Of a DNA stretch of 35,587 nt, positions 828-21,512 are shown piece after piece. The notes below the pieces were generated by a model, which saw only the letters and a list, made by a program, of their open reading frames with translations, searched no databases and was not told the DNA's origin. The DNA lies in NCBI GenBank assembly GCA_947589745.1, contig CANQCS010000023.1:1-35587 (forward strand), written 5' to 3'. This stretch comes from an uncultured Oscillospiraceae bacterium (GTDB taxonomy: Bacteria > Bacillota > Clostridia > Oscillospirales > Oscillospiraceae). Position numbers and translations under genes: made by a program. Positions within the stretch are counted from its first letter, which is position 1. The number at the start of each line of letters is the position of its first letter.

Positions 828-880
828 ATGCAGACCTCCTTCAATGAATTGCATCAACGATGCGAACTCATTATACAGAA

Positions 881-953
881 GGTGTAGGACCTACGGAATA
901 GGTGTAGGATTTGCGCGGTCAGGGTGTAGGTCTTTAGCGGTCAAAGTGTATGG
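881..953. repeat. Tandem terminal repeats of the IS21-type element
   Basis: Upstream of istA the block GGTGTAGG recurs at 881, 901 and 923, with a weaker GTGTATGG at 946, a period of about 20-23 bases. The last two copies are preceded by CGGTCA (917-922 and 939-944). IS21-family ends carry such multiple short repeats, where IstA binds. The exact IS tip could not be placed; it should lie shortly right of 945. Confidence 0.7.
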
Positions 954-1295: not shown

Positions 1296-1487
1296 TCATG
1301 GGGCAATTTGTTGAATGACGTCATAGCAGGCCCCGCCTAGAACAACCTCACTGTCCCAGTCAATGAGGTTGACAGCAATTTGGATGAATTCCGTCTCCGG
1401 ATGTTCTTTCAACACCCGGTCTAGGAGATTAGCCGAGGAGTGGATGGAAAAGCCCAAGTGCCGGATTTTCCCTTGGAAAGACCCCAC
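1296..1487 (-). pseudogene. Aldo/keto reductase remnant at the edge of the ssp operon
   Basis: About 60 codons on the minus strand read GKIRHLGFSIHSSANLLD, then a stretch ending FIQIAVNLIDWDSEVV and CYDVIQ. This matches the conserved core of bacterial aldo/keto reductases (GKIRHLGFSxHxxxxxLxxxL, followed by VQxxxNxxDWxxxxxxxxxCYxV). A family member is about 300-370 aa, so both ends are missing: the N-terminal two thirds, including the catalytic Tyr and Lys, and everything after CYDVI. The fragment begins within about 4 bases of the sspH stop codon (1491), so the defence operon appears to have landed in or replaced part of this gene. There is no ribosome site and it is not expected to be functional. 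Confidence 0.7.
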
Positions 1488-1490
1488 AAA

Positions 1491-4400
1491 TTATACTTCT
1501 TCATGTTCTCTTTCTTCAAATGACGTAACATTTGTGACCGTGGGCTTAAACGTCCCAAAAGAACCATCCGGGCGAACTCGGTCCCCAACCACGACACATT
1601 GACCTTTGTGCAAACTCTTGATTTGGCTTACCCAGCTGTTACTGGACAGAGGATCAATTTGCTTTGCTACCCTAAGAATTTCATCGTCTGTTGGCTTAAA
1701 ATAGAGCGAAAATGGAGCCTGACGGAGGTTGATGACCTCATTTTCCGACAATGATTTCAGACTTTGAGTAGCAAACCATGCTGACCAGCCAAATTTTCTT
1801 CCCTCTCGCAGGATGACCTCAGCCGGAGACCCATCTTTCATGGAGAGGTTTTGCGCCTCATCAAGCACCACGACAAAGGGCGTGTTCTTATCACCGTTCT
1901 TTTTGAAATAATGCCAAGCATCCCACAGCATCATTTCTGTGATGATCACTTGGATTTCTCTCACGTAATGCATCAACTGAAAAATGATAATCGACCCATC
2001 AGAGCGGATAACAGAGTTCCAGTCAAACTCGGCATCCTTTTGGAACTCCACGCTGTCAAAGAACGGAGCCATCTTAGTCAGGACTGATTTAGCGGCAGGA
2101 TTGGCTAGTTCCTTGAGTTTTCCCCTAAATTTGAATATATCTGTCTGATTCCCGTAGGTGTTCATAGCGTCACTGCATGCTGAATATATGGCGCCAAATT
2201 GTTGCTCGCCAAAATTGTAGACATGTGTGAAGATAGCGGCGATCCTCTGAGAAACATCGGAAACCTTCTCCGGTACCTTAAAATCTCCAATCTCAATTTC
2301 ATGGCGTCTGAAGGGATCAATGGGAATCCCCGACACATAAACGACCTGTTGAGTAATCCGATCCGCCAAGGTATTTCTAAACGCCTGTTCAAGCTGGTCC
2401 TCACGGAATCCCTCTGTGTAATCAAAAATCACAGAGGAAATGCCGTTCTCGGCCAGCTCCTTCAACATGGTTTGAATGCTGTAAGTCTTTCCTTGACCAG
2501 AAGTACCGGTTATGAGCAGGTGGCGATTAGCAAGTTTCGGATGACCAAAATCCCAAAAGACTTTATTCCCGGCCTTGTCCTTTCCAATGAATACCCTGAT
2601 GTCCTCCAGAGCTTTTTTCTGAATAACTTCTGGTTTCTCAATTTTAGCTTGGGAGGGGGCTGTCGGCTGATTTACCATATCTGATGCCGGTTCACGCACA
2701 GGATCCTTCTCTTCCTCCTGAGAGGCAGAGGCAGTTTCACCAGGGCTTGTGCTTTCGTTTGTTGCGCCCAAGTCTGTCGTAACTTCTTCCGTAGTCTCAT
2801 CCGAGGAATTTGTTTCAGGGATGACTTGGATGGCAAAGCTCTCGTCCTCATCTTCCTCAGGGGCATCTGTTTCGTCCTCAGCAACTGGCACAAACTCGAC
2901 TGCGGCATCGTCATCATCGAGGAGAATCCTCTGAATCCTTTTTTGCGGGACCTCATGTAACTTGATCATGGGGACCATGGACATGGTGGTTATAATCTCG
3001 TTCTCCCCGGGCATATCTTTCCAATAGCCCATGATTTTCCCGGACCATGAGATTTCAAAATTGCCCTCGAGAATGTCACGCATCTCCTCGGAGAGGCGTT
3101 GAAAAGCCATCGTATCCGATTGGAACGTGATTTGCGAGAAAGCCAAAGCTCTATATAATTGCGCAAACCAATAACGGCGGCGAATGGACGTCGACCTTGG
3201 ATCAAACAGTTTTGAAAGATGCTCTATCCCGTGTTTGACCTGCTTAATCGCATCGGCCTTTCGATCTTCCGCATTGTCATATTTTGCGATTTTGCATTCT
3301 ATGACGGTTGCGTCAAGATGTATTTTTCCATCTTCGCCGATATCTGCCGACACTTGCAGGAAATCAGGTCTCGAGTTGTTCTCGACCTTCTCCTCAAGGA
3401 TGTTGCTTTCAAACCAATGCTGATAGGAGTCGAGATGGACCACAACCTGCAGAGCTGACGCACTGCGCTCTTTTTTCGCCTGAAGAGATGCGAGAATATA
3501 GGCTAAGAACTCATGGATGTTTTCATCTTTCGGGTTGATGGCGCTTAGCAAACTCACCCCGTCCAGATTCCTTGCCTCATCCATGCAGACTCGTGCCGCC
3601 ATCGTCGTTTTCAGCTTGTCCCAGGAGAAAGTCTTTTGCAACCTCCTTTTCAGCCTTGCCTCAACGGCGTTGATAATAGAATTTCTGGCTGTGATCGTCA
3701 GGTTATACTGCCCATGGGGCCCTTTACCTGTACTGAAGCCGATGACAGAATAATCCTGGTTTTTGCCTTCACTGTCGCGGAGCAGAGCACCATCCATCCC
3801 GCTGTCCACACAAACTACCCAATTGGATTTTTGATGGAGCATCAAAATCAATTTTTTGCGTTTGTCATCAATGCTCGCCTCTCGGACAACAATCTGTTTT
3901 TTGTAAGGAAATGACTCGTAGGTCTCCCTATAGTAAACGACCTGGCTGTGGATCGTTGCCGCACTAAATTGTTGTTGCGTCAGCTCAATGCTTCTCTTGA
4001 CATATGCAACCGAAACTGGCGCCGGTTTGAACACAATGGGAAACCGGCAGTCGCTGAGCCCGCCTCCATTCGAGTCTGCGTTCTGCCGCACAAATCGGAG
4101 CTGGTTAAATAACAACACATCCATCAGGAAAATCAGGTCCAGATTGGTGTCCAACAACTTTTTAAGGTCGTCATTGTCATTCCACTCATTCAGATAAATT
4201 TTCAAATCTACGTTTTCTTCTTGATTGAAGAAAGTATTCGCCCAGTAGGACAGATAGTTTTTCCCGCCCTTGTTTTTAGGAAGGACAAGGACATGTAATC
4301 TGATTTGAATGGCTTTTTCATCCGCTCCGGGCTCCTTCTTTATTGTGTTGATATATTGGTAGAGAGCCGCAATGATTGGCTGCAGGTCCTCGGGATCAAT

Positions 4401-6749
4401 CACCGCTATGGAGAGATTAGATGAATAGTTCGGCAGCGCCTTTTTGTACGTCTCCAGAACATCAACAAACATTTTGGCAGAGACGTTCATAGTCTTGAGA
4501 GCTCCGTCAGAAAAATCATCGTCAAACACTGTGTCTTTTTTCATGATGGATCTCATCCGCATTTTGGAAGATCTTTTGCATTCTCCACAAATACAGTAGT
4601 TGGCAAAAGCCCGTGTCGTTCCGAAAAATTTACCATCTTTGCTGGGGAAAATGTCAGCCCCTTCTTGGATTCGTGAAAGCTGAGCCAACTCATCCACCAT
4701 GGAATAGACCGTATCAAACGAGGCATGCATCTCCTCGTTATTATGCAGCCATTCACGGCACCCATCCGCTATGAAAACGACCCTATCAATCATTTTTTGC
4801 AATATAGCAGGATGGAAGGGCGGAATGATACACCCGGTATCGTTTTCGCCTGTTGTAATCGCTCTTGTAGAGCTTTCAATAGCAAAAGCATGGGTAAAGT
4901 AATCCATCACCCACTCCGACTTCTGGGTGAAAGTACTGTTCACAATCAAATCGCCAAGTTTGACATATCTGTCAATAAACTGATTGGCTTTGCATTCACC
5001 CTTCTGGTTTTGAAGGATATCCGCATAAAATCCAACGCTGGTGAGGCTCCTGCAAAAACTCACGAAACTGCGGCCAAGGGCTGAATATTCCTCTCGCCAT
5101 TCGATTGCCCCATCAGGCACAAACTGTCTTTGCGCCTCCGCGCTTAGATTCAAGTCAAAGGAGAGGGAGGATAACTCAAAGACGTCAAGGAACTCCTCTT
5201 CGCTCTTCGCGCTCATCAAGGCCTCGTACTTGTCTACCGTCAACACGGGTATGGCCGCGTCAATTTGATCGTCATCCCATTGCTCGTATTGCATGCACAT
5301 CTGATCAAAGACGATGACCCAATCGTCGTGAAGGGTAAAGGTCCACTCAATGATGTGCTGAATATCCGTGGGCTTTCCCTGGTGATAGTGAGTCACCTCA
5401 AAACTCACTTTGTCCAGTTTTTTGCTGGCCGCCGCTGTAGAAATGAGTCCTTCCAAAATATTGAGTTCCACATATTTAGGGTCAAATGGGGAAGAGTCAT
5501 CGCTCTCAATGCTTATTTCGTTTCCATTTACCTCAAATCCGATGCTGTTGATATATTCTATGACTCCCCCGGCAAACCAACATACTTTTTTCCAGGCAGT
5601 TGCTAATTGCGCCGATTCATCCGCATCTACCAGCGAGTCGACTGCATCGGCCAGTTCAATTGATGATACCTTTAACCTGATTGTGTCGAAGGGTTCAGGG
5701 TCCTCACAGGCGAGTGAGGCGCATATCGCTTTTAGAAAGGCGAAATAGGGATCTCCAGTGACAGACAACTTCTTTTTCTTATGAACAACGACAACAGGCA
5801 GTGTGATTCCCAGAACGTACTCCGTGATGGCAAAATCTACCCCTTGGAGTTTCCTGCGGTTTTCCTCTATATTCTCTCCGCGAATAAATTGACAGACGGA
5901 ATTGGAATACGCCAGCAGGGACTTTATGCTTTGATTTGACCAGCCTGGCCAATCCTCCTGGTACTTTTCTGCTTCCTTCTGATAAAGGCAAACTTTTGTC
6001 TGATACTTATCAAACTGCTTGATTGTCATCTTCGCAAACAGTTTACGGGTAATAAAGTCATAGTTTGTTTGAAGAAGATTCTTCCTGCCGGCGTTGATGA
6101 TTTGATTCACCGTTGGGAGCGTATCTCGAACGCGGCATAAGCCCCACAACGGGAGCTGCTCAAAAAACTTTTCAACGAAATCCTCTATAGTAGATAGCGT
6201 TCCCCATGAATCTGCCATATCACTGAATTTACAGAGGCTAATCGGCACGAGAGAAAACAAATCACCATACAGTTTATTGACGCATTTCTTCTCATCATCG
6301 GTCCACCCGCCCGCAATAGGTGAAAATGCTAAATAGTAATTCGGGACAAGCGCAGAAACTAGCTTTTCAGGGTCAAGATAATAAAAGTCACTTAATCCGC
6401 CCTGATCGTCTACCGCCTCGGTGCCCATGATTACAATCAAGTGAGCCTCACTCAACGGGAGATTTCTATAGTAGGTGAGGCTGTTATTCATGGCGACCCA
6501 ACCATGCGCCTCCACTGAGAGCATGGCTGTTTGATCCGATTGGGGATCCTTCTTAAACTCGCTCCACTTCTCTTTCGACAATCTCGTCTCAACAGCAAGT
6601 TGATCGTCATAGGTGTCATGGAGACGCTTTGCTACAGCCTCATAAATCCTCACATCCTCAAATCCGCTTATTCGGATGCGAAGCTGCTCATCGGGCCGGG
6701 GATTTTGACCTCTAATGGTGTTGATAATCGAATCAACAATGTATTTCAC
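1491..6749 (-). CDS. sspH: SspH / DptH-like HerA-type ATPase of phosphorothioation-dependent restriction
   Basis: This 1752-aa protein is the last gene of the operon. The C-terminal 350 residues form a HerA/FtsK-type motor: Walker A GTSGQGKT at 1415-1422, Walker B VVVLDEAQ with D1630-E1631, then GRKFGWSAWFATQS and NLRQAPFSLYF, typical of HerA-like translocases. Before this lies an acidic low-complexity linker, and a CICGEC cysteine pair sits in the middle third. The long N-terminal part has no domain I can name. Size and architecture match DptH (dnd system-associated protein 2), the large subunit of the DndFGH restriction complex, and SspH of the SspABCD-SspFGH system. It starts with GTG inside the sspG stop (GTGA overlap), so translation is probably coupled. 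Known SspFGH damages DNA lacking phosphorothioate; the motor role here is inferred from the domain. Next downstream is only a broken aldo/keto reductase. Confidence 0.85.
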   Translation of the reverse strand: MKYIVDSIINTIRGQNPRPDEQLRIRISGFEDVRIYEAVAKRLHDTYDDQLAVETRLSKEKWSEFKKDPQSDQTAMLSVEAHGWVAMNNSLTYYRNLPLSEAHLIVIMGTEAVDDQGGLSDFYYLDPEKLVSALVPNYYLAFSPIAGGWTDDEKKCVNKLYGDLFSLVPISLCKFSDMADSWGTLSTIEDFVEKFFEQLPLWGLCRVRDTLPTVNQIINAGRKNLLQTNYDFITRKLFAKMTIKQFDKYQTKVCLYQKEAEKYQEDWPGWSNQSIKSLLAYSNSVCQFIRGENIEENRRKLQGVDFAITEYVLGITLPVVVVHKKKKLSVTGDPYFAFLKAICASLACEDPEPFDTIRLKVSSIELADAVDSLVDADESAQLATAWKKVCWFAGGVIEYINSIGFEVNGNEISIESDDSSPFDPKYVELNILEGLISTAAASKKLDKVSFEVTHYHQGKPTDIQHIIEWTFTLHDDWVIVFDQMCMQYEQWDDDQIDAAIPVLTVDKYEALMSAKSEEEFLDVFELSSLSFDLNLSAEAQRQFVPDGAIEWREEYSALGRSFVSFCRSLTSVGFYADILQNQKGECKANQFIDRYVKLGDLIVNSTFTQKSEWVMDYFTHAFAIESSTRAITTGENDTGCIIPPFHPAILQKMIDRVVFIADGCREWLHNNEEMHASFDTVYSMVDELAQLSRIQEGADIFPSKDGKFFGTTRAFANYCICGECKRSSKMRMRSIMKKDTVFDDDFSDGALKTMNVSAKMFVDVLETYKKALPNYSSNLSIAVIDPEDLQPIIAALYQYINTIKKEPGADEKAIQIRLHVLVLPKNKGGKNYLSYWANTFFNQEENVDLKIYLNEWNDNDDLKKLLDTNLDLIFLMDVLLFNQLRFVRQNADSNGGGLSDCRFPIVFKPAPVSVAYVKRSIELTQQQFSAATIHSQVVYYRETYESFPYKKQIVVREASIDDKRKKLILMLHQKSNWVVCVDSGMDGALLRDSEGKNQDYSVIGFSTGKGPHGQYNLTITARNSIINAVEARLKRRLQKTFSWDKLKTTMAARVCMDEARNLDGVSLLSAINPKDENIHEFLAYILASLQAKKERSASALQVVVHLDSYQHWFESNILEEKVENNSRPDFLQVSADIGEDGKIHLDATVIECKIAKYDNAEDRKADAIKQVKHGIEHLSKLFDPRSTSIRRRYWFAQLYRALAFSQITFQSDTMAFQRLSEEMRDILEGNFEISWSGKIMGYWKDMPGENEIITTMSMVPMIKLHEVPQKRIQRILLDDDDAAVEFVPVAEDETDAPEEDEDESFAIQVIPETNSSDETTEEVTTDLGATNESTSPGETASASQEEEKDPVREPASDMVNQPTAPSQAKIEKPEVIQKKALEDIRVFIGKDKAGNKVFWDFGHPKLANRHLLITGTSGQGKTYSIQTMLKELAENGISSVIFDYTEGFREDQLEQAFRNTLADRITQQVVYVSGIPIDPFRRHEIEIGDFKVPEKVSDVSQRIAAIFTHVYNFGEQQFGAIYSACSDAMNTYGNQTDIFKFRGKLKELANPAAKSVLTKMAPFFDSVEFQKDAEFDWNSVIRSDGSIIIFQLMHYVREIQVIITEMMLWDAWHYFKKNGDKNTPFVVVLDEAQNLSMKDGSPAEVILREGRKFGWSAWFATQSLKSLSENEVINLRQAPFSLYFKPTDDEILRVAKQIDPLSSNSWVSQIKSLHKGQCVVVGDRVRPDGSFGTFKPTVTNVTSFEEREHEEV

Positions 6750-8308
6750 GCTATTTCAACCCCCTTATATGGGTTTACAACAATGGATGTGGCATCCGAC
6801 AAATCTCGGAGAAATCCGGCATCCTTCAGGAACTTCTGAAAGGCGCCCTTATTGCTGGTAAAGCTGTCTGAGAGGCCCTTATCAAGCTCATCAGTCATTT
6901 GACAACGTTTATATTCGTCCGGACCAATCACAAAGGAGTAATGATCATACAGTTTTGTCAAAAAGCAGTCTAAATCCATTTTTCCTCCCGCCGGAACTAA
7001 AGAGAGCACTAAGAATTTGATTACATCTTCCGAAATAGAGAACCGCTCATCCGGCCCGTTTAAAGGGATAATACACTGAATTTCTTTCCCTTTGCTCTTG
7101 AAAATATCCAACGATTCCTTTCTCGCCTTGACAAACAGCCTATACTCCTCTGTCAGATTATGCTCTTCCTCGTGCGGATCTCGACTGTTGATGATTTCCT
7201 TATTTATCGCGCTCATGATCGCCTCTGATATTCTGGTGAAGCTCTGGGCGGAGAGCTTCCTGACTGTTTTATTCCCGGAGCTGTGCATGTCGATGATCCA
7301 GGGTAATCTTCCTCTGGAAAGGTATTCTTCCGTCTGCTCAATCTGCATCCGCATGATTTGCAACATGATCCCTTTTGCAAGCAATTCCACACGCTTAACA
7401 GGGTGGAACTCATTGGACAAGAAACGTGTCAGTTCCTCAACAGCAAACTTGCCAGATTTGAGATACGCTCCGGCAGGAATACAGCCGATAGTCATCCTCC
7501 TCACAAGATGGTTAGGATCTATATTTTTCTCTTTTTCCCATGTGCCCTGTATCCAATTTGCCAGCTGAGAAAAGGCCGAACTCTTGTCGATAAGAAGATT
7601 AACAAGCAACGATTGGAGGCGATCTTTTGCTTCTGGGGCATCCTTGAGGACCTGCAACAGGTGCAGATAATATACCTCTCCTCCGCGGGCCAAGAAATTG
7701 TGTCGGTCCAGTTCAAAGGAGTCATCGTAAAAAGTATCTTCAATGGAATACCCTGCTGCAACAGGCCCATGACACTTTTTCAGAATAGAGGTCCTGTCTG
7801 CTTCCGACCCTTTCTCCCATTTCAAGCGGATGTTGTCATTAGGCATCTCCTCGCAGAAGATCATCTCTGGACAAAGAGGAAGAAGGGTCTGCGCACACCA
7901 GGAGCGATTCTTGAGGACAGCAGCATAACCCCGGAACAGATCTTGGACAGCTTGCAGGAACTCCTCTTTTTCGCTCGCCTTATCCGCTTCTATGTGCTTC
8001 AGCAAGATTTTTTTGATACTCTCGTTTGCTCTTTCGTCACCGGGGATCCTTTTTGCCCGTTTGGCTTGATCAAAGAAGATAAACCGGCGAAGCCCATTTC
8101 TTGGTTTCACAAAATAATACAAGGGCTCATCGCTATGGAATGACATCTCTCCTGTGCCATCAGGTGCTTTTGCAGAGGAGAATACCAGCAAAAACTCAAT
8201 CAGGTATTCATATAGGGACTGGTCACTGTGAAAACGGTTGCCGTAGATCCGTATAGCAGGATTCTCCAAGTTTTTGCAGGAACCGTTCAACGGATATTTT
8301 ACGTTCAC
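6746..8308 (-). CDS. sspG: SspG / DptG-like restriction subunit
   Basis: About 520 aa. I choose GTG at 8308 because AGGAGG (8318-8323) lies 9 bases upstream; a longer frame with TTG at 8338 exists but has no ribosome site and would overlap sspF. No catalytic motif or P-loop is visible. The N-terminal part (VNVKYPLNGSCKNL, later GLRRFIFFDQAKRAKR) and the place between an F-type ATPase and a HerA-type H subunit fit DptG/SspG (dnd system-associated protein 1 family), of which little is known beyond its need for restriction. The ribosome site sits against the sspF stop (8323-8325) and the sspH GTG overlaps its own stop, so F, G and H are probably made in a fixed ratio. The assignment rests mostly on context, size and partial similarity. 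Confidence 0.78.
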   Translation of the reverse strand: MNVKYPLNGSCKNLENPAIRIYGNRFHSDQSLYEYLIEFLLVFSSAKAPDGTGEMSFHSDEPLYYFVKPRNGLRRFIFFDQAKRAKRIPGDERANESIKKILLKHIEADKASEKEEFLQAVQDLFRGYAAVLKNRSWCAQTLLPLCPEMIFCEEMPNDNIRLKWEKGSEADRTSILKKCHGPVAAGYSIEDTFYDDSFELDRHNFLARGGEVYYLHLLQVLKDAPEAKDRLQSLLVNLLIDKSSAFSQLANWIQGTWEKEKNIDPNHLVRRMTIGCIPAGAYLKSGKFAVEELTRFLSNEFHPVKRVELLAKGIMLQIMRMQIEQTEEYLSRGRLPWIIDMHSSGNKTVRKLSAQSFTRISEAIMSAINKEIINSRDPHEEEHNLTEEYRLFVKARKESLDIFKSKGKEIQCIIPLNGPDERFSISEDVIKFLVLSLVPAGGKMDLDCFLTKLYDHYSFVIGPDEYKRCQMTDELDKGLSDSFTSNKGAFQKFLKDAGFLRDLSDATSIVVNPYKGVEIA

Positions 8309-8322
8309 CTTGGCTGTCCTCC

Positions 8323-10014
8323 TCAAACAATTCTCCAATCACCCGCATCGTATTCCGCATTGATAGATTCCCATCCCGAACCCGTCAGGGTAAGGAGTTC
8401 AATATCCAATCTATCTGCTTCACACAACGAAATGATCTGCGCTTTCAGGCTGTCGATTCCCTGGGAGAGCATTGGATCGATATTTGTCGCAATGGCCCCC
8501 CGCCGGATCTCTTCAAAATAATCAAACATGGGTAAAGAGATACGTGTATTGACCCGCTCCCCCGCAACGGAAATGTAAATCAGAAACCGTTTGGTTTGGC
8601 TGTAATCTGAAACCTTTTCCAGTTCAATTTTAACTTTTTTCTTTATGATTGAATCATAGACTAGCTGGACACTCTGGGAGACACCATTTTCACGTTTCAT
8701 AGTGATTGGAATATCTTTCTCTTTCCCAGAAATGGATTCTGTAAAGATCATCTGAAGAGCGTCCTGAACCAATTCTTTGTCGGCACCCGAGGCCGGCTCC
8801 CCGCTTCTTAGCTGTAAATAACGTGGGAACCAATAGGAAAAGACATCTTGCAGCATCTCTTTTCGGCTCGTCTCAGAGGTGTCAATGTTTAAGAACATGT
8901 ATGCCCGCCGCACAGCTCGCTGCCAATCTTCATTATAGTGCAGCAGCTCCCCTTCTCTATCAAGAAGCTCTGCGATATACTTCGTAAAAATTCCAGTCAG
9001 GTCACGCTTAATGAACAAGGATTCATCCGCCCTGAGCCGCTTCTGGTCATAAGCAGCGCGAACGATATCAGCAACCGCTCTCATATTCAGCGCTTCTCGG
9101 TTGATATGTATACCCTTACATCCAAAGAAGTTGTTTGAAAAGAGGAACTTAAATGGGGCGCTTTTGCTATTCGGTACATCTTCACATTTTAAACCGCCTG
9201 TTAAAGTAAAACTGAGATGCCCAACAATTTGGCGGATAGTCAACTTTTCGCCGTACTCCTGTTGGAAAACATAGTGTTTCGTTATGAAGTCGTTGACTCG
9301 GTCACTTGACTGCTCCATTAAGCAGCGGTTTGAATAGATGGCGCAATAGTCCTTTTTGCCGCAGGTACTGCAGGGATCCCATAGTGTCTCTGACAGGAGA
9401 TTATGCAAGAACGGCTTTACAAACGTCGAATTGTCAATCGTCGCTACATTGATGACAGCGACAGGTATCCCGTCATATTGCTTGATTTGCCCATCGTTGT
9501 TATCGATTGCGTCAAGAAGCTGAGCAGATGCTGCATTTGAAAAGCAATCATCAAAGATCTTGATAAGCGGTCCGGTGTTAGCCACCAAAAAAGTGGTTAT
9601 CCCCTGAGAGCACTCGACCTTTGCCTTTTCTAAAACCGTCAGTCTTTCCTCTGCAGTGAGCTCGCTAAAATCCTTGATATACTTCACCATCCTGCCAGTT
9701 AGAGACTTCACGATATCCTCTTTTTTTAGCTTTTCCCCAAACTTGACGGCATTCCAGTCTCTCAAAGTTTGATACAGTATGCCTGTTTTCCCGTCTCCGG
9801 CGTGTCCTGTCAGCACGAAAATAAAGGATGCTTCACCCTCAAGCATATTCTTGATGTAGTGGCCAACCTCACGCTGTACCATTGTTTTTACAAAAAATGG
9901 GTTGGTAATGTTTAATTCGGCAATAGCACTCTGATTATTGGCGCTAGCATTGTGGAGTGTATTGAGATAATCGATAAAACGCTCATTCGGAAACTTCGAG
10001 ACTATTTCTGCCAT
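8323..10014 (-). CDS. sspF: SspF / DptF-like P-loop ATPase
   Basis: About 563 aa from ATG 10014, chosen because a G-run (10021-10026) lies 6 bases upstream; ATG 10020 is an alternative, and the frame is open further up to 10080 inside sspA. Walker A is TGHAGDGKTG at residues 69-78, preceded by a hydrophobic strand (FIFVL). A cysteine cluster CSTCGKKDYC...C in the middle probably binds zinc or is structural. The size, the P-loop of the GxxGDGKT type near the N-terminus and the order F-G-H fit DptF (dnd system-associated protein 3) and SspF. In Dnd systems DptF/G/H form the restriction part that attacks DNA without phosphorothioates; here the paired modification genes are of Ssp type. It follows sspA by 40 bases. 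Confidence 0.82.
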   Translation of the reverse strand: MAEIVSKFPNERFIDYLNTLHNASANNQSAIAELNITNPFFVKTMVQREVGHYIKNMLEGEASFIFVLTGHAGDGKTGILYQTLRDWNAVKFGEKLKKEDIVKSLTGRMVKYIKDFSELTAEERLTVLEKAKVECSQGITTFLVANTGPLIKIFDDCFSNAASAQLLDAIDNNDGQIKQYDGIPVAVINVATIDNSTFVKPFLHNLLSETLWDPCSTCGKKDYCAIYSNRCLMEQSSDRVNDFITKHYVFQQEYGEKLTIRQIVGHLSFTLTGGLKCEDVPNSKSAPFKFLFSNNFFGCKGIHINREALNMRAVADIVRAAYDQKRLRADESLFIKRDLTGIFTKYIAELLDREGELLHYNEDWQRAVRRAYMFLNIDTSETSRKEMLQDVFSYWFPRYLQLRSGEPASGADKELVQDALQMIFTESISGKEKDIPITMKRENGVSQSVQLVYDSIIKKKVKIELEKVSDYSQTKRFLIYISVAGERVNTRISLPMFDYFEEIRRGAIATNIDPMLSQGIDSLKAQIISLCEADRLDIELLTLTGSGWESINAEYDAGDWRIV

Positions 10015-10054
10015 GTTCATCCCCCCGCGCATGTTTGACTTTGATTCACCACCA

Positions 10055-11200
10055 CTACATATTTTCAGCAATATAGTCAAGCGCAGTAACTAGTTCCGCA
10101 AAATCCTTATCCTCTGTGAAAGAGCCTACGCTAAACCGTACCGTGCCCGCTGGGAAAGTTCCTAACCTCTTATGAGCCAGGGGCGAACACTGGAGCCCCG
10201 ACCGTACAGCAATGCCTTTTGAACTCAAAATACCTCCGGCACTGTCGCTACTGATTCCATCGATAAGGCAGGAGACGATACCTACATACTTTCTACCTTC
10301 AACGACGCCTATAGTTGTGATAAAATCGTAACCACTCAAAATCTCCAAAAGTCTATTTCTGTGGAGTTGATCCAGCTGATAGAGCTTCTCTACAGTCTGA
10401 CGGCCTATCCATTTTAATGATGCGTTCAGTCCGGCAACGCCTATCGTGTTGATTGTTCCCATCTCATACTTTTCAGGGAGACTATTAGGCATATTCTGGT
10501 TTGCGGAATCATACCCTGTTCCACCAAACAGCACTGGCGGCAACACAATCGATGGTTCCATCAAAAATCCGGATAATCCTGTTGGACCAAGCAGTGTTTT
10601 ATGTCCTGCAAAAACCGCAAAATCTATGGTATCAAGTCCAACATTCAAGTCGACCAATCCTGCTGTCTGTGCCATATCCACTAATGTTACTGCGCCATAT
10701 CTCTTTGCCAAGTCAAAGATATCTTCCACGGGAGCTACCAGCCCAATAACGTTACTTGCATGGCTTACGATTACAAAATCAGGTCGAACATCATCAAACT
10801 GATAACGCATTCTGTCCAAATCATATTCAAGCGTTTCGGAAACCGATAACTCTTTCACGGCTATCTGGCCAAGCTGCTTGAAGTGATATAGAATGCGGGT
10901 GACTGCGTTATGTTCAAAGGGACTAATATAGACGATCTTTGCTCCCCCGCTGATTATGCCTTGAATAATCATATTCAAGGCAATAGTTGCCGTTGGAGCG
11001 AAAATCACTTGCTTGGCCGGACAATGTAAGAGATCCTGAAGTAATCTCCTTGTTTCAACAATAATCCCTTTAGCTGTGTTAGCAAGGGCATATTCTCCGC
11101 GGCCTGCGCTTCCTCCGTACTTACGGTAAAAGCTATCCATGAAAGAATACACCTCATTCGGCTTCGGATATGTGGTAGCCGCATTATCAAAATATGCCAT
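10055..11200 (-). CDS. sspA: SspA cysteine desulfurase (PLP, class V aminotransferase)
   Basis: 381 aa. It removes sulfur from L-cysteine as a persulfide and hands it on, here presumably to SspD for insertion into the DNA backbone. Visible family motifs are FDNAATTYPKP at the N-terminus, SHASNVIG, the PLP-contacting VDMAQTAG (D175, Q178), the Schiff-base lysine in FAGHKTLLGPTG (K201) and the catalytic cysteine in VRSGLQCSPLAH (C338), followed by GTVRFSVG. The RxGxxCxPLAH form places it in the SufS/CsdA-like branch (TIGR01977-type) rather than the IscS branch. It starts at ATG 11200, 14 bases after the sspC stop. Taken alone it could be a general Fe-S or sulfur-trafficking enzyme; its place inside the operon makes the SspA role likely. 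Confidence 0.9.
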   Translation of the reverse strand: MAYFDNAATTYPKPNEVYSFMDSFYRKYGGSAGRGEYALANTAKGIIVETRRLLQDLLHCPAKQVIFAPTATIALNMIIQGIISGGAKIVYISPFEHNAVTRILYHFKQLGQIAVKELSVSETLEYDLDRMRYQFDDVRPDFVIVSHASNVIGLVAPVEDIFDLAKRYGAVTLVDMAQTAGLVDLNVGLDTIDFAVFAGHKTLLGPTGLSGFLMEPSIVLPPVLFGGTGYDSANQNMPNSLPEKYEMGTINTIGVAGLNASLKWIGRQTVEKLYQLDQLHRNRLLEILSGYDFITTIGVVEGRKYVGIVSCLIDGISSDSAGGILSSKGIAVRSGLQCSPLAHKRLGTFPAGTVRFSVGSFTEDKDFAELVTALDYIAENM

Positions 11201-11214
11201 TTGATTTCACTACC

Positions 11215-14200
11215 TCAACAAAGCTTCTTTAGCACTTCCATTAAAACCTGCCTCTTTTCCTGTTCAGAAATCGACTGTCCCATCGCTGCAAGTGATGTAG
11301 TGATTTGTTTAAACAGGAGCTTTCCGCGGGCCGATATTTCAACCTTATCAAACCGCCTCGTCATATTAACCCCTCCTTCATCCGCAAAGGTTATCTGATA
11401 GCTAGTTGTGCCGTTAATAGTCTCAGCGACCACATTACTATGGAACTCTTCCGCTGTCTTCATAAAACCAGCAAGTGACTCGGAATACCGATTCGCGGTT
11501 TTGCTGTCCCAATCTTCAAGTCGAAGTCCAGTGGCCAACTTTGCAAGGCGTGTTATAAACAAATCCTCGTCGTTCGTCATGCCTCTGATATGTTGAAGAA
11601 ACCGATCCGTTCCGTCCGGGAAAAGCTGTTCAAAACTCTTTGGATCAAGCCGATCGCACCATTCCTTTGCCGCATCTGTCAGTGATAGGTTCTTCCCAGA
11701 TTTTTTGTCTTTTTCAGGAAGAAATGACAATTTGGTTTCTTGAATCAGATTTTGCTTCAGTTCGTTCAATAGTCCATCAAAAGCTCCTTTGGCATCAATA
11801 ATGTCCGTAGCGGCATCATCATAGTCTCCGAGAGAGTCCATTACTTCCGGTAGTCTTCTAAATAGCAAATCAGAACTGCTAATGTTCTGCCGGAGGAGCT
11901 TTATCATTTCAAGCTGTCTTCTATGGAGTCGTTCTCCATTTGGCCTCCTTGTGCTTTCTTTGGAATACTTTGGAAGTGCCATATACCAACGGTGCATTGC
12001 ATTCGAAACATAATCATAAGGATTACCGTTTTTTTCGGCATCCACGATATACTCATCAAACGCCCTTGCTAGTCGAGCGATGTAGCCCTCTTTTTCTGGA
12101 TTCCAGTCTAAGTACTCTAGGGTAAAACCGCTCGGGTCACTGTTGATTTGCACCAACACATCGGCACTGAGCTGGACAGGTCCAAAGCGGTCGTGGACAA
12201 CGGTCTGCTGGCGGTAATTGTGCATAACTGCGGCAACATAGATTGGAATTAAGCCATGTCTCAGTCCTATGTGATTTCGCGGGGAAGTCAGGCGGTCATA
12301 GAGTACAGAAAAACTGACTCGGCCATTCCGGTGAGCTTCATGGATAAAATCCTCAATTGTTGCCAGCATATTACACATTACTGAATCTGCCGGGTGAAGG
12401 TTAATTTGCTGAATTCCGGCATCTTCATTCCAAATCCCCGTCCGAAGGAGCGTACTTCGCATGATAGAAACTTCCTGACCCGTCCCGATAAGGCCTAGGT
12501 TCGGTTCAAGCTCACTTCTCAACAATGCGCTGATGATTTTATTGCGACTGTTTTGCGCAATGCTGGTGATCTCATTTCTATTTACAGATTCGTTGTTGAT
12601 AATCGGTGTCATGGAATAAACTCTGTCACAAATTTGTGACAAAGATTCGGTTAAGCCAGATTTCCGACGTATATTGAGTATATCTCCGTCATGGATATAG
12701 ACCGATTGGTAACTTTCCGGATGCGTGTATGCGACAATAAAGGTCTTTATGACTTCCTGCAGGTCCTCGAATACCACTTCGTACTCATCGAACAATATGG
12801 GGTCATCCACCGCTTGGTCGCGTAGACGCACAACGGCTGCGTACTCCTGAACAACATCTGTGATGTCATAATAATGCTTGGGAAGCACAAAAACATATCG
12901 GTCACAGCCCTGACTTGTGCGTCTGATGATGTTTGCAAGATTCGATAATTCTGCCTCACTACCTGGAATAATACCGTAGATAACACCATCAGCATCAATT
13001 GACTCACTTTTAATATTCCAGTCTACATTATCGGTAACTTCTGCACCAGATATGAACTGAAACGAAAAGAAACGTGTCATCTCATGCTCGTCGTTATAGC
13101 GCGTAGGATACATATAGTTGTCGAAATTAGACGAATTAAGAATGTCCTTTGATGTAATCTTTCCAGATTGCAATACCTTCAAATCGTGAATCTTCTGCTG
13201 AATATCCACGCCGGAGGTTTGCTTCAACCTGAGATAGTCATTGCTCCTCTTGACATAGATGACAAACTCTTTTTCAACAAGATCTGTGACTGCTCGTCTA
13301 ATGTCCTCAACTTCATAAGAGCACGAATAAGTACTGATAATCTGTTCCATGGTAGGACTAAGGCGTTCGAACTGCTCAAGGATATAAATCAGCGAGATTG
13401 TTTTTATTATTTTACTTCCAAGCGTTCCTTCCTGGAGCTGATTTAAAATTGTACGCGAAAGAACGAAAATATCATGTATTTCTCCCGCATATATCTCTTT
13501 TTTTAGTAGCGGCTCAAAATAGTCATATATTTGGTCCGGCGTCACAAGGGAAAAATCGTCTTTATACTCATCCAAAAAAGCTGAAAGCGTGGCTGTTCCT
13601 TCCGCCGACAGGAAAGTAAAGAGTGTACGTTCATTTTGGGCGATACGCTCAGAGAGCCGGGGCAGGATAAAAGTTGATACAGGGTGGAGAGGGAAACAAC
13701 CTTTGATTGCGGTGCTTATCTCCCCCTGTGTATCTGTGAACATCTGATGCGTTTTATATATGTTGAACAGCGCATCAAAATCGCGTTCATGAGCGTCACA
13801 GAAAGTCTTCCATAACGGTTCCTTATGTTGTATAACAGATGAGATTACCTCATATGTCTGAGTAAAGTTGTTGTTCACATGGATGTGCTTGAAGCGGTCA
13901 GATACCCCGCGCCATCCATCAGTCTTCTCTTTAGGAAGCCTATCAATATAATTTGATATCTCCTTGTGAGAAATCAGCATCAGGTGAAGTTGCATATCTC
14001 CGCTGCGGCAACACTTTTCGGCAAAATCCTGGAGCATTTTAGTGTCGCTCACGGAAGCGTCCACAATATTGGACTCCAAAAATTTGCTGAACTCGTCATA
14101 GACAACATAGATGCCAGAATAGCCTTTGGATTTAATGCTTTTAGCAACGCTTTCATAGAGGTCAACTACATCAAAGCCCAGGAAGGGATTAAATACACTT

Positions 14201-14820
14201 CCTGCTGTCAAAGTCGGATATATGCACTCGAAGGTCTCATATGCGGCAACATCAAAGTTCTCCAGACGAGAAATGAATACCTCAACTGGACTATCTATAC
14301 AATTCTGAAACTCCTTAAATGTATCAGGAAATTCCTTTTTCCAACGCACAACGACCTCAACAGCCGCTTTATAATTTGTCTCCGGCAAGGCTGTCACAAG
14401 ATCATATTCTGAAAGTGTGCGCTGCAATGAAATCAGGAATGCTTGGGTAAGACTTGTGTTACTACCACTGATTACAACAGGCAGAATCTTGTTATCACTA
14501 TCATAATAATTTAAAACGAGCTGATAAAGCCTCGGATTCTCCCGAAGTCTCGGTATCAGTTTCTCAAAAAGGGAGAGATCTCGCTTTAAAAGTAAAGAGA
14601 GAATCGTGAGTACAATGTGCGACTTGCCTTTGCCGTATGCGCCAATCACTACCCTAGCTCGATCAGTAGAGGCTGGGGATATGCTCAAGAGTATATCTTC
14701 TAGCAAGCTTAGCGCTGATTTAGTCGGGATAAAATTTCTTAATTTTTCATTATTTCCGAGATCATATCCTATATTTACGGAATATTGGAAGCCAGAAGCA
14801 ACGGAAATCATGTCTCTCAT
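11215..14820 (-). CDS. sspC: SspC-like large P-loop NTPase
   Basis: 1201 aa. Walker A is GAYGKGKS (60-67) and a Walker B-like strand YVVYDEFSKF lies near 237-246. The rest is long, mostly helical and without a motif I can name; it resembles the large ATPases of the BrxC/DUF499 type only in overall plan. In characterised Ssp systems SspC is the ATPase that works with the SspB nickase and SspD in single-strand phosphorothioation, and this gene has the matching place: its ATGA start overlaps the sspB stop (4 bases) and sspA follows 14 bases later. There is no DndD (SMC-like) or DndE gene, which argues against a canonical Dnd modification set. The name is from context plus the P-loop, not from recognised full-length similarity. 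Confidence 0.75.
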   Translation of the reverse strand: MRDMISVASGFQYSVNIGYDLGNNEKLRNFIPTKSALSLLEDILLSISPASTDRARVVIGAYGKGKSHIVLTILSLLLKRDLSLFEKLIPRLRENPRLYQLVLNYYDSDNKILPVVISGSNTSLTQAFLISLQRTLSEYDLVTALPETNYKAAVEVVVRWKKEFPDTFKEFQNCIDSPVEVFISRLENFDVAAYETFECIYPTLTAGSVFNPFLGFDVVDLYESVAKSIKSKGYSGIYVVYDEFSKFLESNIVDASVSDTKMLQDFAEKCCRSGDMQLHLMLISHKEISNYIDRLPKEKTDGWRGVSDRFKHIHVNNNFTQTYEVISSVIQHKEPLWKTFCDAHERDFDALFNIYKTHQMFTDTQGEISTAIKGCFPLHPVSTFILPRLSERIAQNERTLFTFLSAEGTATLSAFLDEYKDDFSLVTPDQIYDYFEPLLKKEIYAGEIHDIFVLSRTILNQLQEGTLGSKIIKTISLIYILEQFERLSPTMEQIISTYSCSYEVEDIRRAVTDLVEKEFVIYVKRSNDYLRLKQTSGVDIQQKIHDLKVLQSGKITSKDILNSSNFDNYMYPTRYNDEHEMTRFFSFQFISGAEVTDNVDWNIKSESIDADGVIYGIIPGSEAELSNLANIIRRTSQGCDRYVFVLPKHYYDITDVVQEYAAVVRLRDQAVDDPILFDEYEVVFEDLQEVIKTFIVAYTHPESYQSVYIHDGDILNIRRKSGLTESLSQICDRVYSMTPIINNESVNRNEITSIAQNSRNKIISALLRSELEPNLGLIGTGQEVSIMRSTLLRTGIWNEDAGIQQINLHPADSVMCNMLATIEDFIHEAHRNGRVSFSVLYDRLTSPRNHIGLRHGLIPIYVAAVMHNYRQQTVVHDRFGPVQLSADVLVQINSDPSGFTLEYLDWNPEKEGYIARLARAFDEYIVDAEKNGNPYDYVSNAMHRWYMALPKYSKESTRRPNGERLHRRQLEMIKLLRQNISSSDLLFRRLPEVMDSLGDYDDAATDIIDAKGAFDGLLNELKQNLIQETKLSFLPEKDKKSGKNLSLTDAAKEWCDRLDPKSFEQLFPDGTDRFLQHIRGMTNDEDLFITRLAKLATGLRLEDWDSKTANRYSESLAGFMKTAEEFHSNVVAETINGTTSYQITFADEGGVNMTRRFDKVEISARGKLLFKQITTSLAAMGQSISEQEKRQVLMEVLKKLC

Positions 14821-15728
14821 ATTGCTCTCTCCTGATTTTGCTCATTGATAGACTCATAAAACCGCTCTACACAACCATAGAAATCAAGTTCTTCTTGTAT
14901 ATTAATAACATCTAGTCCTGCAGTTCGATTGATTTTAATCAAACCGAGTTTCTCGATTCGATATAGCACATCAAGCATAGTAATCGAATCAAGATTAAAT
15001 ACTTTCCCAATATTGCATGGTGCCGTCAAAAGTTCATTCAGGCTGATCTCCTTTTGCTCTTTGGCATTGTCGACAATGACCGCTAACATGATATATGGGT
15101 CAAGAGTATTGCTGGCAGAAATGCTTTTTTTGTAAACCTTTTTTCGCTTGTTAAGAATATCTACAAGGCCAAGCTCGCCAAGAGGGCAATCAATATTATT
15201 CTCTGGTGATACTCGAGCTGTATTCACTTTATAGCGTGGAAGATAGGTATTGATAATGCATTGGAAATCGTCATTCAGTGACCTGATTGCAAATTGAGTT
15301 TCACTGTCGCGCATTTTAATATATTTCTGCAAGGCAGCGACAAAATCCTCCCTTGAAAATTCCGAAACGGAAAACTCGTTAAAGAAAAAGTACCAGGCGG
15401 TGGCGCTGTCCCTTTGAGATGCGAGACGATACTGTAAAAGGCAAAGGGTCCCTAATTCTTCGATATATCTATCATGCTCATAAACCAATTTGCCAAGTGT
15501 TGTGAAGGTTTGGCATCGTCTACCTCTTTCTGGTTCTTCGGTAAGTCCGACGGCTTGCAACCAATAGCGCAATGCCTTGACCATATTAGCACCAATGCCA
15601 AGAACATCCATGGGGTTTTCATCGCGGGCAATAAAGACATCTGGATTGTTCGCTACACAGCGCATACCTTTACTGAGCCATCCCTTCCTGATAAAAAATG
15701 TTTCGTGAGCTCTGAATTTCATAGGCAT
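14817..15728 (-). CDS. sspB: SspB-like DUF4007 protein
   Basis: 303 aa. The N-terminus carries the DUF4007 signature: FRAHETFFIRKGWLSKGM, then DVLGIGANMVKALRYWL, then EELGTLCLLQYRLA and AWYFFFNEF. Proteins of this family sit next to DndC-like PAPS reductases, and SspB of the Ssp system is described as a DNA-nicking component needed for single-strand phosphorothioation; I attach that role from family and context. The C-terminal part looks like a winged-helix fold (VLYRIEKLGLIKINRTAGLD). It starts at ATG 15728 with GGGAGG about 8 bases upstream, 19 bases after sspD, and its stop overlaps the sspC start, so the two are probably translationally coupled. No metal-binding nuclease motif is obvious. 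Confidence 0.85.
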   Translation of the reverse strand: MPMKFRAHETFFIRKGWLSKGMRCVANNPDVFIARDENPMDVLGIGANMVKALRYWLQAVGLTEEPERGRRCQTFTTLGKLVYEHDRYIEELGTLCLLQYRLASQRDSATAWYFFFNEFSVSEFSREDFVAALQKYIKMRDSETQFAIRSLNDDFQCIINTYLPRYKVNTARVSPENNIDCPLGELGLVDILNKRKKVYKKSISASNTLDPYIMLAVIVDNAKEQKEISLNELLTAPCNIGKVFNLDSITMLDVLYRIEKLGLIKINRTAGLDVINIQEELDFYGCVERFYESINEQNQERAI

Positions 15729-15747
15729 TGCGGCGTCCTCCCAGTCT

Positions 15748-17463
15748 TTACTTTGTCCGCAAATATTTGTCCATCATGCAACCACCGTCGAGATACTTGG
15801 CAGTCATGCACATTTTGCAATGGACACACTTATTCGGATTGATATAGTAGTTATCTCCAATAATGGAGATTGCCCCTTGTCTACAGATGGATTCGCATTT
15901 AAGGCACTTCCTGCAGGCATTGAATTTCCTGACCTGATAGCCAACCATGCGTTGCAATTTCTCATGATCAGACACATTCATCGTTCTGACCTTAACGGCA
16001 TAATCGTAGCCATCTTGGTTAAATGGTTGGATTGATAGAATCGGCACATTAGTAAGGGTATCAAGAATGATAGTCTCTCGCAGAATCTTTTTCCCGAGCT
16101 CCGATGCAACCTTGCCAAACGGTACAAACATTCCGACGAGTTCATCATCGAACGGCCTGACTAGCTGATATATCTTTGCGTGATCTTCTGTCGTGCAGTT
16201 GGTAAATCGAATCTTCACATCACCTGCTGACGCAAGTCCATTTCCTCCCTGACGCGCCTTCCACTTTCCACTGTCCACATATACTTCAGGGTCTGGTTTT
16301 CCAACCTTTTTCGCAAAATCGACGAGAAAATCATGCCACTTTTTTGACTCTTCTGGCATATAGATTCGGGAAAGAAATTGTGCGCGCTGATTATTATTTG
16401 GACAGCACCAACAGCCTACGCGATCATAACCGAGCCTGTAAGCTGAATTAAAGTCAATTTCTTCTGCAAGTATATATAACCATATATCGATATCCTTCCA
16501 AAAGAAAATTGGAGAAGCAACGGTCTGCTGTTGAATTTTGACAGATTCGGCATCGTCCTCGATTCTATTGTATTTACTGCGGCTTACCGATTCTGCTTTT
16601 CTTATACCGTAGAAAGTCAATATTTGATGGCTTCCGTATAAACTATAAATTATTCTTGTAATTGGACCTGTTTTGAACATCGAGCAACACCACCGCATCA
16701 TCCGGGCAGGTGGCCCAATATCCTCACATACATCATAAAATACCTGATCCTCGTTTTTGGCAACTTGAAAAATTGCCAGTGGATGCTCATCGCGATACCG
16801 ATTTGCGTACTCAATGGTCATAGGGAACTCAAGGGTCGTGTTCCCAAAGATATGTACTAAACATGGATTACTCAATGCTTTTGTTACCAAATCAGCTGTT
16901 ACAGTTGAGTCCTTGCCTCCAGAAAAGGAAATCACAATATTTTCTTCGCTGACTTTTTCTGCTGCCTGGCGGACAAAAGCGAAAGCCTCATCTTTAAGGT
17001 AGGCTAATCTATGCTGATTAGCTCTAACAAATTGAGCTATATTATTGTTGAAATATGTATAATCAATTTTATCTGGGTGCCTTTTTATTTCCTGAGCTAT
17101 TTTATCTGTATTCGCCTCAGAAAAAACTTTTAGTGAAACAGAATGGCCTTTTCCATCAATATAATACCTGCTATTTGCTGCCCAAATTGAATGATTCATG
17201 TATTCTTCCGGCTTCTTATTCAGCAATATTGCAAGCAGAAGTCGTTCCTCTGGGAAAACCGGCCTTAAATCAGAAGACAAATACTCAGTTTCTTCCCCAC
17301 AAATCGGACATACGCCCTTATCCGCCGCTGTGGAAAGATGAATAATCGGAAGCATGCAGTTTTTACACCAGTAGATTACTACGGGAATATCTTCACATGT
17401 TTTTCGCTTGCAGACCGGGCAATATGCCTCGTTAGTCTCAAAATTGCAATATCTGCACCACAT
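15748..17463 (-). CDS. sspD: SspD-like PAPS-reductase/DndC family protein with zinc ribbons and ferredoxin tail
   Basis: 571 aa, first gene of the operon. Domains in order: a Cys-rich N-terminus with four CxxC pairs (C3/C6, C15/C18, C33/C36, C52/C55), i.e. two zinc ribbons; the PP-loop ATP pyrophosphatase SGGKDST at 181-187; Fe-S-type cysteines in MRWCC (259-260) and GCWCCPNNN (351-354); and a C-terminal 2x[4Fe-4S] ferredoxin-like domain, CRKCLKCESICRQGAI and CVHCKMC. DndC/SspD proteins use ATP to activate the DNA phosphate and an Fe-S cluster to carry sulfur; the fused ferredoxin could supply electrons (inference). AGGAGGA lies 8-9 bases before ATG 17463 and a strong promoter stands upstream. 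A general PAPS/sulfate reductase is less likely because of the neighbours and the N-terminal ribbons. Confidence 0.88.
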   Translation of the reverse strand: MWCRYCNFETNEAYCPVCKRKTCEDIPVVIYWCKNCMLPIIHLSTAADKGVCPICGEETEYLSSDLRPVFPEERLLLAILLNKKPEEYMNHSIWAANSRYYIDGKGHSVSLKVFSEANTDKIAQEIKRHPDKIDYTYFNNNIAQFVRANQHRLAYLKDEAFAFVRQAAEKVSEENIVISFSGGKDSTVTADLVTKALSNPCLVHIFGNTTLEFPMTIEYANRYRDEHPLAIFQVAKNEDQVFYDVCEDIGPPARMMRWCCSMFKTGPITRIIYSLYGSHQILTFYGIRKAESVSRSKYNRIEDDAESVKIQQQTVASPIFFWKDIDIWLYILAEEIDFNSAYRLGYDRVGCWCCPNNNQRAQFLSRIYMPEESKKWHDFLVDFAKKVGKPDPEVYVDSGKWKARQGGNGLASAGDVKIRFTNCTTEDHAKIYQLVRPFDDELVGMFVPFGKVASELGKKILRETIILDTLTNVPILSIQPFNQDGYDYAVKVRTMNVSDHEKLQRMVGYQVRKFNACRKCLKCESICRQGAISIIGDNYYINPNKCVHCKMCMTAKYLDGGCMMDKYLRTK

Positions 17464-17522
17464 GCTTCGATTTCCTCCTTCCGAAAATTAACTAGTAAAA
17501 GGCATCAATTGACACTTCATGT

Positions 17523-17552
17523 ATTATACCATGACTATCGTCATGCTTTCAA
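17523..17552 (-). promoter_or_regulatory. Promoter of the ssp operon with an operator-like palindrome in the spacer
   Basis: On the minus strand TTGAAA (17547-17552) and TATAAT (17523-17528) are separated by 18 bases. The spacer contains a perfect inverted repeat, CATGAC-GATA-GTCATG (17530-17545), filling nearly the whole gap between the hexamers. A dimeric repressor bound there would block RNA polymerase. The leader to ATG 17463 would be about 50 bases. No regulator gene lies beside it, so any repressor is encoded elsewhere or is one of the Ssp proteins. Confidence 0.75.
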
Positions 17553-17844
17553 CGGGTTTATTTAAGAAAAGTCCGCATAGATAAAAGCACAACCGGTCTG
17601 AGCCCGCCGCGGCAGTGCGTCCCCCCGTTCCCGAGTATCCCACATTTCCACTCAGGCGCAGAGAAGGGCTTTGGTCTCAGCTCCTGAGTCTCCCAGACAT
17701 ATTCCCAGAAGGCTGGGTAACAGGCACATATCCGGAGTCCTGGCCTTCGCAGGTGTCTAAAGACCCTAGAGACAAAAAAGCGCAGGCCCTGAGCATACAG
17801 GCCTCCTTAGTCATGCTCCCCCAAAAAAGATGAGTTGCGTCTCT
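17553..17844. other. Gene-free gap between ssp operon and transporter operon
   Basis: No coding frame with a ribosome site was found on either strand. A 45-codon minus frame starting MTKEACML (ATG 17815) ends at about 17678 and has its G-rich run only 2 bases before ATG, so it is not called. No riboswitch core was recognised. Confidence 0.5.
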
Positions 17845-21442: not shown

Positions 21443-21512
21443 ACTGATAGTAAATCACCTCTCTTCTAGTGTCAGTCTGACCACACACAAAATGAGTGTG
21501 CATCGGGCTTTC

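Follow-up and report, generated by a model that had tools for sequence, protein, structure and literature searches.

Does a run of seven genes in an uncultured Oscillospiraceae bacterium encode a phosphorothioate (PT) restriction-modification system, and is that system complete? The genes lie on contig CANQCS010000023.1 of assembly GCA_947589745.1; the entire contig of 35,587 bases was analyzed and is called the window hereafter. In the published SspABCD-SspFGH system, SspABCD act as writers of PT marks and FGH damages DNA that lacks them; phage resistance results, with F, G, and H each required (PMC8092258). An initial annotation of the window had claimed a complete operon of this kind. We consider it quite likely that the genes form a variant of the SspABCD-SspFGH type of PT restriction-modification operon, because all seven proteins have family matches, catalytic or nucleotide-binding motifs occur in A, C, D, F, and H, and the genes make up a conserved, sharp-ended cassette with low dN/dS whose order recurs in L009, G022, and G480. 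An Ssp-type modification set and an FGH restriction set do share one operon, as had been claimed, while the identity of D, the families of F and G, and the completeness of the system needed correction.

Gene content and layout of the operon

Seven uninterrupted open reading frames, all on the minus strand and in the order D-B-C-A-F-G-H, occupy window positions 1491-17463 behind one strong promoter. The proposed single leftward operon is thus borne out: every frame is intact and every product matches an Ssp phosphorothioation family. The overlaps reported earlier are present, of 4 bases (ATGA) between B and C and as GTGA between G and H.

17523..17552, minus strand: promoter TTGAAA-18-TATAAT with extended -10 (TG); 11 of 12 consensus matches; 1 found versus a mean of 0.5 in shuffles
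17530..17545, no strand assigned: perfect 16-bp inverted repeat (6-base arms, 4-base loop) within the promoter spacer; the arms match nowhere else in the window
15748..17463, minus strand: D, BrxP-like PAPS-reductase/PP-loop protein (SspD role), 571 aa; PADLOC BrxP 1e-81, SspD 4e-11; Pfam PAPS_reduct 1.3e-31
14817..15728, minus strand: B, SspB (DUF4007), 303 aa; Pfam DUF4007 1.5e-83; PADLOC SspB 4e-59; solved SspB 6juf 2.9e-24
11215..14820, minus strand: C, SspC/BrxC-like ATPase, 1201 aa; PADLOC SspC 3.4e-125
10055..11200, minus strand: A, cysteine desulfurase (SspA/DndA-like, class V aminotransferase), 381 aa; Pfam Aminotran_5 4.5e-65; PADLOC SspA 3e-35, DndA 6e-33
8323..10080, minus strand: F, SspF, P-loop protein, 585 aa; PADLOC SspF 2.7e-32; Walker A GHAGDGKT at 92
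6746..8338, minus strand: G, SspG, 530 aa; PADLOC SspG 7e-35
1491..6749, minus strand: H, SspH with C-terminal HerA/DptH-type translocase, 1752 aa; PADLOC SspH 5.5e-23 at residues 903-1239, DndH 3.6e-70 at 1145-1671
3291..3431, minus strand: predicted PD-(D/E)xK nuclease core of H, residues 1107-1153 (LDxxxxWF ... RPD ... ECK), from an 11-SspH alignment
1851..2507, minus strand: HerA motor core of H, from Walker A GTSGQGKT (1415) to Walker B LDEAQ (1629)

Position 17552, the upper end given in the initial annotation, is the first base of the -35 hexamer. The inverted repeat is a candidate operator, and no regulator gene was seen adjoining it in the window. In G022 (L006 3909-4118), a small helix-turn-helix frame, presumably XRE-like, stands immediately before D. 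Downstream of H, the search for a terminator gave nothing: a 101-base stretch covering the end of H is no more stably folded than its shuffles. For F and G, the first starts (TTG 10080 and TTG 8338, respectively) are uncertain, with further start codons downstream.

Protein D is a PP-loop protein, as had been proposed, with four N-terminal Cys pairs, the PP-loop SGGKDS at residue 181, and a ferredoxin-like CxxCxxCxxxC motif at 517 near the C terminus; its likeness to SspD is weak next to that to BrxP. It is of a long type with a ferredoxin-like end and scores best against BrxP of BREX type 4, not against the short SspD. The other three modification genes turned out to be what they had been called. 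For the DUF4007 protein SspB, Pfam, PADLOC, and the solved structure agree; C is a large P-loop SspC with a Walker A motif at residue 60 and a Walker B-like YDEF at 241, both with counterparts aligned across the 10 sequences compared; and A joins its family matches to the retained residues of a cysteine desulfurase (HK 200-201, Cys 338, FEHN, VDMAQ, and VRFS), the roles of which are described in PMC7188994.

On the restriction side, the earlier description as DndFGH-like applies to H, which ends in a HerA motor with a DndH-like match, and not to F and G, whose best matches are SspF and SspG (F reaches only 5e-5 against the DndF model). Further matches of H were to the Pfam HerA central domain (2.5e-8), solved HerA 4d2i (4e-7), and solved DptH 7es4 (0.0026). 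Residues D1107, E1151, and K1153 of H are invariant in 11/11 SspH, and D1129 is kept in 10/11, the exception being the Asn of L009; the pattern, which we take to be the PD-(D/E)xK motif, fits a predicted nuclease. The motor is HerA/DptH-like in the window, L009, G022, G480, and G279 and different in the six plasmid SspH aligned, five of which are annotated FtsK/SpoIIIE, and the two kinds are fully separate in the tree of the H front part as well as in that of the motor. Searches against solved structures returned no match for F or C and only chance-level ferritin matches for G. That the operon holds no DndD or DndE was confirmed with PADLOC, neither model matching any of the seven proteins; DndD was searched in these proteins only, and a genome-wide search for DndE was empty, as it was in the control genomes.

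Two side observations concern restriction genes elsewhere. In L009 the Asn aligned with D1129 (16734-16736) occurs in a locus in which the two genes described below, B2 and C2, are open; it may weaken the nuclease of that H. Next to or within plasmid SspFGH loci (L034 20767-25084, L032 20772-25147, and L029 6375-10948) there is a recurring pair of genes annotated as a sensor histidine kinase or ATP-binding protein and a hypothetical protein; a scan of the L034 pair gave weak REase_II matches for one member.

Conservation of the cassette

The nearest relative, L009, comes from an Oscillospiraceae metagenome-assembled genome (labelled uncultured Oscillospiraceae) and carries an operon syntenic with that of the window. 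The two DNAs are 87.4% identical over 16,112 bp (window 1487-17565), and the alignment stops abruptly at both ends, so the cassette lies in different surroundings in the window genome and in L009. The promoter is at the same place in L009, and both palindrome arms are kept. All seven genes are open in both copies, with pairwise dN/dS of 0.066 (D), 0.090 (B), 0.092 (C), 0.084 (A), 0.157 (F), 0.127 (G), and 0.099 (H); all seven are under purifying selection between the two copies. The operon has a G+C content of 0.44, compared with 0.56 on its left side and 0.50 on its right.

The same D-B-C-A-F-G-H order was found at 26-44% identity in G022, a member of the same family, and in G480, a member of the same taxonomic order. 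The gene order noted in the initial annotation is therefore real, and it is not peculiar to the window. SspF was matched in 2/200 genomes of the family and 3/391 of the class, the window's own genome being counted in both. Comparison of the flanking DNA with 25 same-genus genomes revealed no syntenic flank giving an empty site. Among viral contigs, 3 loci match the ATPase part of H only and 0 match G; phage records gave 0 G matches.

Two further genes after H in relatives and the break in the window

In 9/9 HerA-type relatives readable beyond H, the next two genes encode a second DUF4007-like protein (B2) and a second SspC/BrxC-like ATPase (C2), in that order. B2 and C2 have 269 and 1535 aa in L009 (where the start of B2 is shared with the window) and 277 and 1398 aa in G022. 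In G480 they are 67% (B2) and 54-76% (C2) identical to those of G022, with C2 in three frame pieces, and in G279 they match at 5.7e-24 and 9e-83, C2 extending to the end of the stretch fetched. An SspG profile search of 398 genomes of the phylum matched 11, including the window's own and 7 others strongly; five of these 7 loci (G1083, G1018, G1308, G1216, and G1124) hold F-G-H-B2-C2 in a row, and in the other two (G1021 and G1187) the contig ends inside H. Three weak matches (G1005, G1157, and G1330) were left out of the count. The pair follows H both with a long D (L009, G022, G480, and G1083) and with a short D (G279, G1018, G1308, G1216, and G1124), and since it does so whichever D type is present, B2-C2 is linked to FGH rather than to D-B-C-A. 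C2 follows H in 0/7 plasmid SspFGH loci, where weak C2 matches fall in the SspC gene. As a separate observation, SspF is longer in 6/7 strong loci of the phylum search (L095-L105: G1083, G1018, G1308, G1216, G1187, and G1124), at 833-1524 aa versus 585 aa in the window.

In the window, the operon breaks off at the end of H, and three features lie at or beyond the break.

1487..1504, minus strand: B2 remnant, consisting of the start codon and the next five codons (MKKYNL), which overlaps H at its end; identical to L009 over 18 bases
1299..1486, minus strand: aldo/keto-reductase-like gene fragment at the break; window 1313-1472 has 88% DNA identity to G000:C105:9706-9865
3..827, minus strand: transposase (istA), cut by the contig end; Pfam rve 1.2e-9

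Of the 18 remnant bases, 14 are inside H, so only 4 are kept past it; the sequence is then unrelated to B2, and the B2 frame stops after 27 codons versus 269 aa in L009. The copy on contig C105 is an open paralogue, in the same genome, of the gene at the break; Pfam gave no match for the fragment, which we assume to belong to the aldo/keto-reductase family. The transposase is presumably IS21-like, and an open reading frame opposite to it (129-887, plus strand) was rejected as a gene. When a 775-aa part of the L009 C2 was searched in the window's own genome (98.8% complete), it found SspC only and no C2. The operon, called complete in the initial annotation, is therefore doubtfully so: the nine informative relatives have two genes past H of which the window holds a stub of the first. 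Loss of B2-C2 by a break at the end of H would be the simplest reading.

What might the lost pair do? Homologues of C2 accompany a second DUF4007 gene on Thermomicrobium roseum and Pseudanabaena galeata plasmids, where the pair has a DUF4007-SspC-PAPS reductase set on one side and a PglZ-BrxL-cysteine desulfurase set on the other; though annotated as hypothetical, the P. galeata PglZ matches that of T. roseum at 2e-33. Given this setting, B2-C2 resembles half of a BREX-like effector, the BrxA/BrxC-like half, that has been joined to FGH, and the pair may read the state of DNA. Tentatively, and with slightly more doubt than belief, we propose that HerA-type SspFGH is a five-gene effector, F-G-H-B2-C2, with its own reader pair paralogous to the writer pair B-C. 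If so, writing and reading of the PT mark would fall to two copies of one machine, and the window would be a natural reader deletion, a ready-made test of FGH without its reader. As a conserved pair tied to FGH and related to the mark-writing pair, B2-C2 is a concrete candidate for the reader by which SspFGH would tell PT-marked from unmarked DNA.

Association of D-B-C-A with other effectors

After L009, the D-B-C-A sets nearest to that of the window are not linked to FGH. In G485 (L072 2666-14587), D, B, C, and A are 62, 57, 45, and 47% identical to those of the window and are followed by PbeA (1e-255) and PbeC (5e-112), an Ssp-type writer joined to a Pbe-type effector. In Treponema saccharophilum pTS1 (L078 18031-29888), D is 66% identical (it has no row in the gene table shown), and the next genes after the set encode a DEAD/DEAH helicase, an ATPase, and a phospholipase D-like protein. 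G257 has the order B-C-D-A with PbeA and PbeC. In G224, a 412-aa D-like frame has as its neighbor an 804-aa protein with matches to type IV restriction and PbeA helicase models; no B, C, or A was found in the stretches read. The G485, G257, and G224 loci come from a set of 13 genomes treated as BrxP-like at an E value below 1e-75, of which the window, G480, G485, G257, G224, G350, and G546 were read; the BrxP family search as a whole had matched 348/391 genomes and 12/14 controls, probably via the ferredoxin and PP-loop parts.

The D tree puts the window and L009 together with G485 and Treponema, away from G022 and G480, and the C tree agrees for the rows it contains. Approximately unbiased (AU) tests, the hypotheses of which were framed after the identities were seen, reject a single clade for the FGH-linked long D (p 0.00018 with four rows; p 4e-6 with five rows including G1083). 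The occurrence of one kind of D-B-C-A cassette with FGH, with PbeA/PbeC, or with a helicase-ATPase-phospholipase D set suggests a portable PT-marking module whose effectors can be exchanged. Such a cassette bears on the published sspBCD loci without sspFGH or sspE: 2,211 of 2,678 lack both (PMC8092258).

The Pseudanabaena plasmids ABRG53b (L031) and pPg_05 (L033) carry genes for a methyltransferase, DUF4007, SspC, PemK/MazF, Uma2, a cysteine desulfurase, and ParA in the same order. One of them has F-G-H (H in pieces) with DUF262 and kinase genes at the place where the other has DUF4007-C2-PglZ-BrxL, an apparent effector swap at one site.

Proposed mechanism and alternative explanations

In the mechanism that we propose, A would take sulfur from cysteine and hand it to D, the BrxP-like PP-loop enzyme, which probably activates the DNA phosphate using ATP. 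The DUF4007 protein B and the ATPase C would select and open the site, so that PT marks are placed on host DNA. F, G, and H would form the restriction complex, in which the HerA motor of H pulls DNA and the PD-(D/E)xK-like nuclease cuts it where unmarked. B2-C2, the normal end of the restriction module in this lineage, may be its site reader or licensing pair, and the window copy would then be either a reduced yet working FGH or a writer with a weakened or silent effector. We infer the chemistry, specificity, cutting, and defense, as well as the role and loss of B2-C2, from sequence.

Several points weigh against this account. In the trees, the D of the window lies far from the 7 short SspD, which group separately. 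The nuclease and motor of H rest on motif and profile matches, and AlphaFold2 models from two-row alignments were unusable (mean pLDDT 34.7 for H 940-1330 and 31.7 for G). Five of the 9 relatives with B2-C2 were recovered by an SspG profile whose input was the window plus the remaining four. The break could be a chimeric contig join, being 1.5 kb from a contig end in a 252-contig assembly. B2-C2 may also be dispensable, by analogy with proteobacterial SspFGH, which works without the pair (PMC8092258). Finally, at sites on which the outgroups agree, departures in the window outnumber those in L009 by 8:2 in D-B-C-A and 10:5 in F-G-H (18:7 together). The two gene sets do not differ in this respect (Fisher p 0.66; few sites), and the relative-rate check shows no special decay of FGH; recent decay would still fit.

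Another possibility is that the loss of B2-C2 disables FGH, leaving an operon that only marks DNA or is decaying. The presence of the pair in all informative relatives, its truncation in the window by a break near the IS21-like element, and the somewhat larger number of unusual residues in the window overall speak for it, whereas F, G, and H are intact with low pairwise dN/dS, and the unusual residues of FGH are in no excess over those of D-B-C-A, though the loss may be too recent to show. We regard a dead or silent effector as possible but rather unlikely. It is much less probable that FGH acts autonomously, without PT guidance, as has been proposed for DndFGH (PMC10853773), the shared operon being one of convenience. 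HerA-type FGH does join two types of D, and D-B-C-A does join other effectors; against this, unrestrained SspFGH in the published system harmed PT-lacking cells (PMC8092258), and FGH loci with a readable writer side carry SspC-like genes. In that survey, G279 showed only D and the C-terminal part of C, and G1021, whose contig begins at F, is silent.

Very improbable, in our view, is that the modification set represents part of BREX type 4 (BrxP, DUF4007, BrxC, and cysteine desulfurase) working as BREX, with FGH merely adjoining. D matches BrxP far better than SspD, the same-class BREX-4 loci G350 and G546 use a longer BrxP, and the architecture of D has been noted in a subset of SspD (PMC12839542). 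Yet the window's own genome gave 0 PglZ matches (the control was positive in 2/14 genomes), and filing the locus as BREX type 4 was rejected on this ground. BrxL had no model match among the seven operon proteins, and tblastn with one BrxL, from T. roseum, gave no match in the window, the only part of the genome searched. In addition, D is without a fused DUF4007, the C of the window stands with SspC-like rows in the C tree, apart from two BREX-4 rows (on long branches), and FGH follows D-B-C-A in the same order in four loci. We retain the variant PT restriction-modification operon as the most probable account.

Other genes of the window

To the right of the operon are ABC transporter genes (17921-22585; two permeases, an ATPase, and a PnrA-like binding protein) and two amidohydrolase genes (24526-27287), an ordinary gene content. 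Positions 30960-34103 encode a 1047-aa protein that has RCC1-like repeats and, at its C terminus, S-layer homology domains.

Comparison with known systems

With DndABCDE-DndFGH, the operon shares a cysteine desulfurase, a PP-loop enzyme, and a DndH-like motor at the end of H; it differs in having no DndD or DndE model match, in the match of F and G to Ssp models, and in the presence of DUF4007 and SspC. With BREX type 4 (BrxP-BrxC-PglZ-BrxL; PMC12839542), it shares a BrxP-like D with a ferredoxin-like motif, DUF4007, a BrxC-like ATPase, and a cysteine desulfurase; it differs in that no PglZ was found in its own genome, in a D unfused to DUF4007, and in having F-G-H instead.

The H-B2-C2 arrangement of the relatives recalls the HerA/FtsK capture systems (PMC10853773) and BREX-related capture systems (PMC12839542), which combine HerA, ORC/Cdc6-like ATPases, and DUF4007-like triple winged-helix proteins; HerA with ORC/Cdc6 and SspB-like proteins is described for the former (PMC10853773). 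In the text available to us, these systems are described without SspFGH or a PT cassette, and the term sspFGH is absent from the main texts of both papers. Our search of paper listings and accessible text turned up no account of B2-C2 accompanying SspFGH, nor of an Ssp-type D-B-C-A paired with PbeA/PbeC.

The closest known system is SspABCD-SspFGH of Vibrio anguillarum FF-93 and its relatives (PMC8092258). Shared with it are a DUF4007 SspB, an SspC ATPase, a PP-loop D, a cysteine desulfurase, and a three-gene F-G-H with a Walker A motif in F and a translocase-like C terminus in H. The window differs in its long BrxP-like D, in the position of A between C and F, and in the B2-C2 added in its relatives; likewise, the published H has FtsK/SpoIIIE similarity, whereas that of the window has a HerA/DptH-type motor. 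D has the SGGKDS expected of sspD but matches BrxP (1e-81) better than SspD (4e-11), and a desulfurase, which IscS may replace in the published system, is present in the operon as A. Single-stranded PT at a fixed motif, phage resistance, and FGH toxicity without PT characterize the published system. Both SspABCD-SspFGH and a BrxP-like subset of SspD are already published, and the operon of the window is most likely a variant form of the former, set apart by its long D, its HerA-type H, and the linkage to B2-C2 in its relatives.

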